In this document: in pieces, positions 6,467 to 11,040 of the stretch
How positions within the stretch are numbered: position 1 is the stretch's first letter
Layout: the number at the start of each line of letters is the position of its first letter
NCBI GenBank assembly: GCA_030154025.1
Contig: JASKKT010000018.1
Span: forward strand, 1-44,858
Length of the DNA: 44,858 bases
Direction of reading: 5' to 3'
From: Methanolobus sp.
GTDB taxonomy: Archaea; Halobacteriota; Methanosarcinia; Methanosarcinales; Methanosarcinaceae
Notes under the pieces: generated by a model
What the model saw: only the letters and a program-made list of their open reading frames with translations
What the model was told of the DNA's origin: nothing
Databases searched by the model: none
Made by a program: the position numbers and the translations under genes

Positions 6467-9400
6467 TCATAGCAACATTCTCTTTGAAGAAGTGGCCGGT
6501 TTTCTTTTTCTGTCGGTTTCTGTACCATATGAATTATCAGCCGTTCCATTATCGAGCCTGAACTTTGAAACTACCGACTGCATCTTTGCAGCAACGTCAG
6601 CAAGTTCCTGAGCAGACTTTGAGAGCTCCTGCATGGACGCGGTCTGTTCCTGGACAGAAGCGGAAGCTTCCTGTGTCCCTGCTGCAGATTCTTCGGAGAT
6701 GGCAGATACTTCTTCCACTGAGGATGTAATCTCTTCTATCGATGCGGACTGCTCTTCTGCAGCGGCAGCTATTTCCTGGACCATCTTAACGATGGTGTCT
6801 CCTGCCTCGACGACCTTTCCGATAGCAACGACCGACTTCTCAAGAGATACCGCTCCTGTAGCCACTTCATCAGTGCCTTTCTTCATTGAAGCTACTGCGT
6901 TCTGGGTACCACTCTGCATCTGATGGATGAGTTGCGCAATCTCTTTGGCAGCATTGCCTGAGTCCTCTGCCAGCTTGCGTACCTCATCCGCAACCACGGC
7001 AAACCCACGGCCGTGCTCTCCGGCTCTTGCAGCTTCTATTGCTGCATTGAGGGCCAGCAGGTTTGTCTGGTCGGCAATGCTTGTTATGAGATCGACAATC
7101 TCACCTATCTGCTTGGACTTTCCGTCAAGCTCTTTGATGACATCCGAAGAGTCTCCAACGGCAGATTTGATATTAGCCATCTTTCCCAGAAGATCCTGCG
7201 ACATTTCCCCCAGATCATGTATGAACTGGTTGGAAACAACCGCTGTCTGTGCTGCCTTTTCTGAATTAACGGCTACTTCCTGGACAGTTTGGGTCATATC
7301 GCTCATCGCCCTGGAAACTTCTTCGGCCTTGGCAGACTGCATCTGTGCGCCTTTAGATATTTCAGTTACTGCACCGCCTACCTGTTCACTTGCTGCCAGA
7401 AGTTCCTCACTTGAAGAGGATATCTCTTCTGCTGCCGAGGCAACACTTTCAGCATTCTCGCTTACAAGAGCAACTATCCCATTCAGGGACTGCCTGCAAT
7501 TCTCCACGCCGTCGGTAAGCTGCGAGAAATCTCCGACTCCATTGACCTGTACAGCTCTTGTCAGGTCATTGGATGAGATGGAATTCAGGACTTCGCATGA
7601 ATCATTGATAACATTCTGAAGTGCGTCCCCGAAATTATCGAGGGTGTTACTCAGTTGTCTGAAGTCTCCCTTGGTGTCTATCGTTACTCTCGCACCCAGA
7701 TCGCCTTGGGCATAGGCATCAATGACCCTTGCAGCCTCACTCAGGGGACCTGTGACAGCATCCAGGCAGTTGTTGACTCCCTCAACGATCTTGCGATAGT
7801 CGCCCAGATGTTTCGAGGCATCTGCACGTGTACTTAACTGGCCGTTAATCCCTGCCTGCGCCAGCTTATTGGCGTCAGATACCAGAAGTTTCAGGTTATC
7901 TCTTATATTCACACAACTCTTTGCCATGACATCCTGTTCTGACATCACCGTTATGTCAATATCAAGGATGCCTTCCGCCATTTTCTGGACACTTTCTGCA
8001 TCGTGCCTGCTATTTTCAATTACTTTCTGTATGCTCGCGATGAGTACATCGTCTTCGGAGCGCTTACTTATACTCACATTTGTATTGCCTATTGAGAGGT
8101 TTCGTGCAACCTCAGATATCTGGCTGTTCGCTTCAATAAGATTATTGAGGTTATTCTTTATCTCGTTGAAGTCTCCGTTATACTGGTCAGCAATTATCGG
8201 GGGTAACTCTCCCTGTGAGATTCTGTTAACATATTCCGCAGCCATGTTTAGCGGACCTATGACAGCATCAAGAGTATGATTCACACCTTCAACTACGGCA
8301 CGATAATCTCCCTGGTGTCTGGAAGCATCGGCGCGGACATCAAGCTGGCCCTGCACTGCAGCCTTCGAGAGCACATCGGCATCCACAATCAGATTATTGA
8401 TGGCATCTTTCACCTGTCCGAGAGAAGCATATATGCTCGTAAAGTTTTCATGCTGATCGACTGTGTACTCGTTTGCCTCGGTCACACAGGAATCAATATC
8501 CAGGTTCCCCGCAGCAATATGCTCCAGATTGGAAATCAGGCGGTTGATCTCTTTCTTGGTGTAAATCGCATTTTGCTTTACTGCGGAAACGTCCTAGAAG
8601 AGTTCGATATGTCCGATCTTCCTGCCCCCGGCATCGTGCAGGTAGGAAGCATCCACCTGGTAGTTCCTGTTCCCGGCAGGATTAGAGAAATAAGTAACAG
8701 GTTTTCCACTGTTCAGTCTGCAGACACCGCATTTTTCGGTACCGCATATTTCAGCGCCCCACTGCTCACATGAAGAGCCAAGCACTTCCTCCCTTTTCAG
8801 GCCTGTGAGCTCTTCCACTGCCTTATTGATGAAGGTCCAGTTCATATTAGTATCCGTGACTGATACCGCGAACGGAAGACTATCGAGGATTGAGTTGTAC
8901 CAGTATACCTTCTCAACTATAACGTCAAGCAACTGGTTGATATGTTCCATTACCCTGCGGTCGTTACCTTCATAGATATCCGCCTGGCCACGGGTATCAA
9001 ACTTTTCATGGATTGCAGCATCTACGAGTTCAAGTATCCCATTGATCAGTTTTTCTTTCTTCTCTTCAGTGATGTCAAGAACAAAACCATCGAGATATTG
9101 TATAGTCCCGTTTTCATCAACTGCGGCCTCTCCGTTCTCGCGCACCCAGCGAATGCTGCCGTCTTTATGGAGGATACGGTACTCGATCTCCCAGTGTTCG
9201 TTGTTCTTGATCGCTTCGGTGATACTCTGGTTTACATAGTCAACATCTTCAGAGAGAATAATGCTCTCATAGGTCCTTACAGAATTATTTACAAAATCAG
9301 ATGCCGGATATCCACTTGATAAAGTGACCTTCTGAGACATACTGAGCATTGTCCCGTTTTTATCGTATTTGCAGCGGAATAGAAAACAAGGAATATTGGT

Positions 9401-9490
9401 TACGAGGAAATCAAACTGCGATTCTTTTTCACGCATTGTGTTCTTAAGATCAGCGACTTCTTTTTTAAGCTTGCTTTTTTCATTGAACAT
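6467..9490 (-). CDS. Cytoplasmic PAS/HAMP methyl-accepting chemotaxis protein with in-frame UAG (possible pyrrolysine)
   Basis: One reading frame of 1008 codons is interrupted only by UAG at 8594-8596 (codon 299). Residues 1-25 are coiled coil, about 26-143 a PAS domain, and about 200-300 a second PAS with Cys241, 249, 254 and 257 (CX7CX4CX2C). HAMP-like units follow, including two near-identical blocks at about 376-414 and 544-582 (GDYR and VEGVN signatures). The signalling domain has the hairpin tip [20 protein letters not shown] near 805-825. There is no membrane segment, so it is a soluble receptor signalling to CheA/CheW. The UAG falls in the standard PAS exit ELF-x-DVS, where a Gln is commonly found. 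If UAG is read as Pyl the protein is 1007 aa. If it terminates, a 298-aa PAS protein results and the downstream part would need a GTG at 8485. A split pseudogene is the alternative. Confidence 0.8.
8594..8596 (-). other. In-frame UAG codon, candidate pyrrolysine site
   Basis: The codon is TAG on the minus strand, between GAACTCTTC and GACGTTTCC. The frame is open on both sides: 298 codons before it and 708 sense codons after it. No other gene in the window uses UAG as its stop. Confidence 0.7.
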
Positions 9491-9933
9491 TCAAAAACCT
9501 CTTGATCGGTCATCATTTATTCCGATTGACTATATACGGCAGAATTTTCTAATAATATACTAATAGTTATTATAAAAATACTTATCCATTATATCTCACC
9601 AATTAAATATTTATACATACATTTGAGAAATACGATGTGTGAATAATAAATATGGAAGAGCCGGAATGCTTTTGTTGAAACTAATCTAAGGGAAGAAATA
9701 GAATCCTGCTTACTAACTCTTGAAATTTCAGTTGGACTTTGCGATTATAACTAATAAATATAACAATTATTTTAGGTAGCAATAGATTTGTTAGTAGCAC
9801 ATTTCTAAAACAGATACATACATTAATATCTCTCAAATATTTCAATTAAGGGATAACAAGAACCATTTGGGGCCGGTTTGTTATATGCCAGCATTGGACC
9901 CAAGGACATATACCAAAAACCGGGCCCGGAAAA
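9491..9933. other. AT-rich intergenic region with a long hairpin
   Basis: I see no gene here. The right end, next to the peptidase-gene fragment, holds an imperfect inverted repeat. Its arms, at 9869-9889 and 9904-9927, share GGGCCGGTTT and TATATG cores. On the minus strand it directly follows the fragment's stop codon, so it may be the original transcription terminator of the peptidase gene. The left part must contain the chemoreceptor promoter; several A/T runs around 9550-9620 could be TATA boxes and none stands out. Confidence 0.45.
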
Positions 9934-10015
9934 AGCATTTCACATCACCATGAACCGCAACGTAATATAGAATATCAGGCCCCCGAACACGACTGCAGTG
10001 ATGAATCCGGCTGTG
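9934..10015 (-). repeat. 82-bp direct repeat, left copy: detached 3' end of the prepilin/archaellin peptidase gene
   Basis: This segment matches 12352-12433 in the same orientation with 6 differences in 82 positions. It encodes, on the minus strand, the last 25 residues of the peptidase (TAGFITAVVFGGLIFYITLR then FMVM and stop). The reading frame is preserved and is joined in frame to the truncated reverse transcriptase upstream. It therefore looks like a displaced or duplicated gene end. Confidence 0.85.
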
Positions 10016-10382
10016 CCCAATGGACGTACTTTTCCATTTGATTTAGGGATATAGACTCTTCTAACTGGTTTGGGTCGGTAGTCCTTCAGAAACAGATTTT
10101 CCTGAAGGAGTTGTACATGGGCTTCTGGTGTATCGATGATAACACCGTCTACTCTAGGAGTGTGTTTTCCTTTATTTTGCCGGGTCACTTGACGGATTGC
10201 CAGTAACTTTGCGCTAGCTGAGCGAACGAGGAGCTTTTGCAGGTTTTTGACCTTACATGTTCCCCGTTCTGAGCCGCTCGGAAAATCCTTTCCTGTATTC
10301 GCCGTACTTGCCCTTCAACAGCAGCCAAGTTGATGTCCTGCCATTTCAGGTTTTGTTCCTTGGTCTGTTCAATAACTAGCAT
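10016..10382 (-). pseudogene. Group II intron reverse transcriptase/maturase, 5' fragment with frameshift
   Basis: The minus strand from GTG/ATG near 10382 encodes the N-terminal region of a group II intron-encoded protein: KWQDINLAAVEGQVRRIQER and RAAQNGEHV, the usual start of these proteins. The frame then breaks near 10255. Restoring one base gives NLQKLLVRSASAKLLAIRQV and TRQNKGKHTP, which continues into VDG and RVYIPKSNGKVRPLG, the family's RT-0/RT-1 motifs. The protein stops matching at that point, after about 120 residues, where the peptidase-gene tail begins. The palm catalytic YADD region, maturase and endonuclease domains are absent, so it cannot be active. Intact proteins of this family are 400-600 aa. 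Confidence 0.85.
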
Positions 10383-10890
<508 letters not shown>

Positions 10891-11040
10891 CAGGTAGGGG
10901 CATCTAGATACTATAGAGTCCATTTCTGGTATTCCTCTCTGACCCTTTCAGGCCGCAAGCAACTGAAGTTGCAGGCATCCTTCCTCAATTTATCGTAAAT
11001 TACTCCTCCCTGCCAGCCTTCGCCTGTCGAAGAGCTCATC

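Follow-up and report, generated by a model that had tools for sequence, protein, structure and literature searches.

An in-frame TAG in a Methanolobus chemoreceptor gene: a candidate pyrrolysine protein outside methylamine metabolism

Does the single UAG that interrupts a chemoreceptor gene of Methanolobus sp. terminate translation, or is it read as pyrrolysine (Pyl), so that a full-length receptor is made? The gene is located in a 44,858-nucleotide stretch of DNA, which is referred to here as the window. The genome from which the window derives is a 2.26-Mb assembly in 86 contigs (99.77% complete and 0.66% contaminated).

The interrupted receptor frame

The receptor frame occupies 9490-6467 of the minus strand and comprises an ATG at 9490, 298 sense codons, the TAG at 8594-8596, 708 sense codons, and a TGA ending at 6467. 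The first-pass annotation had described this frame as encoding one PAS-PAS-HAMP-MCP protein, a description borne out by the sequence and by Pfam. No further stop or frameshift is present across the 1007 receptor codons, and a good Shine-Dalgarno-like sequence precedes the ATG (CAAGAGGTTTTTGA). The features are as follows.

6467..9490, minus strand: chemoreceptor (MCP) frame, PAS-PAS-HAMP_2-HAMP-MCP, 1007 codons with TAG as sense (ORF reading and Pfam; dN/dS 0.095 against the orthologue)
8594..8596, minus strand: in-frame TAG at codon 299, where the full-length orthologue has CAG (Gln) (sequence and alignments)
8594..9490, minus strand: 298-codon frame if UAG terminates, with two PAS domains and no output module (ORF reading, Pfam, and AlphaFold2 model)
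9498..9504 (approximate), minus strand: Shine-Dalgarno-like AAGAGGT before the ATG (CAAGAGGTTTTTGAATG; direct sequence reading)
6467..8485, minus strand: 672-codon frame starting at the nearest GTG after the UAG, with no Shine-Dalgarno-like sequence at normal spacing
8494..8596, minus strand: possible RNA hairpin starting at the UAG (z about -2.3 to -2.5)

The Pfam matches of the read-through receptor comprise PAS_3 (residues 49-136), PAS_4 (202-305), two HAMP_2 domains, HAMP (579-625), and MCPsignal (760-931), with no transmembrane domain among them. With HAMP, PAS modules, and the MCP signalling domain all present, the protein is a cytoplasmic PAS-HAMP-type methyl-accepting chemotaxis protein, and proteins with CheW domains are encoded in the same genome. 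In an AlphaFold2 model covering residues 189-420 (mean pLDDT, 88.9), the final strand of the second PAS domain (PAS2) ends with residue 299, and the exit helix follows directly. The UAG thus falls, in the model, exactly at the junction between the sensor and output parts of the receptor. Truncation at this point would leave two PAS domains without output, and a changed side chain at residue 299 would plausibly be tolerated. Standard annotation would give a 298-aa protein and a fragment, or a pseudogene.

PAS2 also contains three cysteines (window 8926-8594, minus strand; receptor residues 241-259; C...ICGTEKC) that are invariant in 25 relatives, which suggests a metal or redox sensor. A group II intron remnant is present at 9940-10188 and 10811-10918 of the window, both on the minus strand, with an Rfam match to group-II-D1D4-7. 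The remnant includes the start of a reverse-transcriptase-like protein (RVT_N, below the cut-off), which continues in frame into a copy of the neighbouring prepilin peptidase's C-terminal tail.

TAG as sense and stop codon in the genome

Contig 12 carries pylS, pylB, pylC, and pylD in a row, with bit scores of 720, 542, 488, and 360, respectively, all of which exceed the NCBIfam cut-offs, and a tRNA-Pyl gene with the anticodon CUA (CTA in DNA) at C12:34612-34683. Near this pylT gene are mttB and mtbB, each with an in-frame TAG; mtmB, likewise with an in-frame TAG, is located on contig 17. The genes pylS, pylT, and pylBCD, without which a Pyl reading would have foundered according to the first-pass annotation, are therefore all present. 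One aRF1 gene above the cut-off was identified in the same genome. The TAG-bearing mtmB is adjoined by an MtmB-family gene without an in-frame TAG (L152 3788-5119, plus strand; G000:C17:39787-41118), possibly encoding a non-Pyl methyltransferase for another substrate.

UAG serves as both a sense and a stop codon in archaea with pyl genes (PMC2933860), and approximately 4-5% of gene ends in Methanosarcina are TAG (PMC4153887). TAG use in the present genome was estimated from a 514-kb sample, in which approximately 365 genes were called by codon score: 225 end in TGA, 115 end in TAA, and 25 meet a TAG. Three of these 25 lie within genes (mttB, mtbB, and the receptor), and approximately 22 of the 365 genes (6%) end at TAG, mostly with short tails unlike coding sequence. 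At one locus (L130 9491-11050, plus strand), shikimate kinase, chorismate mutase, and purE genes, named by reading their translations, are consecutive in the same frame and all end in TAG; readthrough at these codons would yield fusions. The pylD gene itself ends in TAG followed by TAA. TAG is thus ambiguous in this genome, much as in Methanosarcina. An all-TAG pyrrolysine code in archaea was reportedly described by Kivenson et al. in 2025; here, the TAG-ending genes argue, though not decisively, against an organism-wide code without TAG stops, since readthrough into short tails at all of them is conceivable.

In the window, a coding-score gene call gave 27 genes ending in TGA and 13 ending in TAA, and TAG is met by the receptor frame alone. 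The first-pass annotation was therefore correct that all other genes of the window end in TAA or TGA, but the point carries less weight than it was given, because at approximately 6% TAG use elsewhere a count of zero among 40 genes will often occur by chance and is uninformative alone.

In length and in coding score, the coding-like 708-codon extension of the receptor far exceeds all others that follow a TAG in the 514-kb sample, which is not a chance result, and it is the only non-methyltransferase extension in the sample without a nearby restart codon. As a control, the same 514 kb were scanned for pairs of coding-like stretches separated by a TAA or TGA. Among the 26 cases found, a restart codon is present within 30 codons in almost all, and seven doubtful cases, upon inspection, resemble antisense shadow frames or separate neighbouring genes; in the 514 kb, no gene of the receptor's kind was seen to be interrupted by TAA or TGA. 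That the receptor is the sole non-methyltransferase interruption without a restart is suggestive but, as a single case, not strong.

Separate translation of the second part was also considered. The first start codon after the UAG is a GTG at 8485, 37 codons on, which lacks a suitable upstream (Shine-Dalgarno-like) sequence, and restart there is judged unlikely from the sequence. A downstream hairpin promoting Pyl insertion was rejected as evidence: the structure is missing at the matching site of the orthologue (z -0.5), other windows of the same receptor gene fold equally well or better, and the hairpin at the UAG is probably incidental. Pyl insertion does not require a downstream RNA element (PMC2933860, PMC8211752).

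Origin of codon 299 and its possible explanations

The only full-length orthologue found, in genome G006, also has 1007 codons, aligns without gaps at 77% identity, and has CAG (Gln) at codon 299. At this site, Gln is present in five of the seven next relatives and Thr in the other two, and Ser, Asn, Ile, and Met also occur in an alignment of 25 sequences, in which the next residue, Asp, is better conserved. TAG was found at codon 299 neither in the orthologue nor in any relative examined. The UAG is thus not conserved among orthologues in the manner of a functionally required Pyl; among the sequences compared, the TAG is private to this species and the site is variable. Because the orthologue has CAG and most near relatives have Gln, codon 299 is likely to have arisen by one C-to-T change, CAG to TAG, as the first-pass annotation had proposed. 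In a gene-order comparison with G006, nothing but the receptor gene aligned in 40 kb.

Both halves of the frame are equally constrained: dN/dS against the G006 orthologue is 0.080 for codons 1-298 and 0.102 for codons 300-1007, although with so diverged an orthologue (dS about 1.5) such tests can neither date the TAG nor show selection after a recent one. Amino-acid changes after the TAG at sites conserved in outgroups number 20 on the branch of the window and 26 on that of the orthologue. In these comparisons, the receptor shows no sign of decay and no excess of post-TAG changes in this lineage.

Since the pyl set is present, the orthologue has CAG, the two halves are equally constrained, and a restart is poorly supported, the receptor is likely translated at full length with Pyl at residue 299. 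This full-length product by way of a CAG-to-TAG change was the principal proposal of the first-pass annotation and remains the best reading of the pyl genes, the orthologue, and the conservation of both halves. Termination at 8594 must also occur, because TAG ends approximately 6% of genes in this genome. In M. acetivorans, a foreign gene carrying an introduced amber codon yielded about 20-30% full-length product (PMC2933860, PMC8211752). The explanation that we consider probable is thus as follows. In a soluble PAS-PAS-HAMP-MCP receptor, the Gln codon CAG at the junction of PAS2 and the signalling helix would have mutated to TAG in this species. The cell would make pyrrolysine and charge tRNA-Pyl, and UAG would be read in competition with the single release factor, giving a mixture of the 298-aa PAS-PAS fragment and the 1007-aa receptor with Pyl299. 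The TAG would be nearly neutral and retained since readthrough gives enough full-length receptor. The simplest history would be that proposed for Thg1, i.e. a neutral TAG rescued by pre-existing suppression. Transcription of the gene, Pyl incorporation and its efficiency, and neutrality are what we infer here, and the full-length Pyl receptor is probably a harmless accident rather than a designed switch.

A less likely explanation is a recent pseudogene: the TAG would be a new nonsense mutation that abolished function and is too young for decay, and neither the PAS-PAS product nor a low level of readthrough would have a function. TAG is used routinely as a stop in this genome, the constraint tests are blind to a very recent change, and the remains of a decayed group II intron are located immediately upstream of the receptor. 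Loss may also be cheap, with 17 other receptor matches in the genome, and nonsense-broken receptors do occur in the genus, as in a draft genome (L170, G011:C64) where a receptor gene contains an internal TAA and is probably a pseudogene or an assembly error. Against this stand the lack of a second lesion in 1007 codons and of a lineage-specific excess of changes, the presence of UAG-reading machinery, and the lack of TAA- or TGA-broken genes in the sample described above.

In a one-contig genome from a different species of the same genus (L150, G020:C1:2449000-2456500, minus strand), another receptor is interrupted by a TAG, at residue 616 of 871; its homologues mostly have Glu, Asp, or Gln at this site. 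Receptors of the genus thus acquire TAGs and also, once, a TAA. An enrichment of TAG over TAA and TGA among broken receptors was considered, but the internal stops in 290 homologous receptor segments (two TAG and one TAA) are too few; most TAA or TGA flags among the receptor homologues proved to be natural gene ends.

Far less probable is a regulated switch, in which the balance between truncated and full-length receptor would depend on how much Pyl is available or on the charging of tRNA-Pyl, so that chemotaxis would be coupled to methylamine metabolism. The chemistry permits it, UAG decoding in Acetohalobium arabaticum depends on the growth substrate (PMC8211752), and the UAG is placed, in the model, exactly at the sensor/output junction. 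If such a switch were true, the independent origin of receptor TAGs in two or more species (the present one and G020) would point to repeated recruitment. However, the TAG is missing from the orthologue and all relatives examined, the hairpin after the UAG is not shared with the orthologue, and no feature of regulated readthrough is common to the relatives. In addition, the low use of TAG stops (about 6%) resembles that of Methanosarcina (4-5%) rather than that of A. arabaticum, and termination would remove the whole output module, leaving a fragment without known use. The alternative suggestion of the first-pass annotation, that receptor length tracks Pyl charging and methylamine physiology, is accordingly not supported, given an unconserved TAG, a variable residue, and a hairpin absent from the orthologue. 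In deep assemblies, isolated substitution errors are rare; an assembly or sequencing error with CAG as the true codon, conceivable in a single draft genome of 86 contigs, is the least probable explanation of all given the completeness and low contamination of this genome and the separate receptor TAG in the one-contig genome of another species.

Comparison with known pyrrolysine proteins

As a full-length Pyl protein, the receptor would join the few likely pyrrolysine proteins outside methylamine catabolism, and would do so as a signalling protein. The gene also offers a clean natural case, with CAG in one species, TAG in the other, and orthologues of equal length, for measuring the tolerance of a codon with a double role as sense and stop. 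The first-pass annotation had presented the gene as a Pyl candidate outside methylamine metabolism; this kind of protein is already known from Thg1, 16 predicted proteins of 'Ca. M. alvus', and a candidate sensor kinase cluster. A chemoreceptor example appears to be unreported in the literature searched.

With mtmB, mtbB, and mttB of the same genome, the receptor shares one in-frame TAG read, or here predicted to be read, as Pyl. In those genes, Pyl is catalytic and conserved, whereas residue 299 of the receptor is variable and unconserved. In 'Ca. M. alvus', 16 Pyl proteins are predicted outside the methyltransferases, with TAG-interrupted frames, relatives without TAG, and a pyl-bearing archaeal host, as in the present case; TAG stops account for 1.6% there vs about 6% here, and readthrough may thus be less efficient here (PMC4153887). 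A candidate UAG-interrupted sensory histidine kinase (PMC3639795, cluster 16) is likewise a sensory protein with a predicted in-frame UAG in the same archaeal family, but is distributed in three species of Methanosarcina and Methanohalophilus, whereas the receptor TAG is private to one. The resemblance to Thg1, the tRNA-His guanylyltransferase of Methanosarcina acetivorans, in which an in-frame UAG that is not conserved specifies Pyl (Heinemann et al. 2009), is close. As far as the summary of that work in PMC2933860 goes, the two share a species-private UAG, a gene unrelated to methylamines, an ordinary residue in relatives, and a proposed neutral origin; they differ in that Pyl has been seen physically in Thg1 and is predicted in the receptor, which is a signalling protein.
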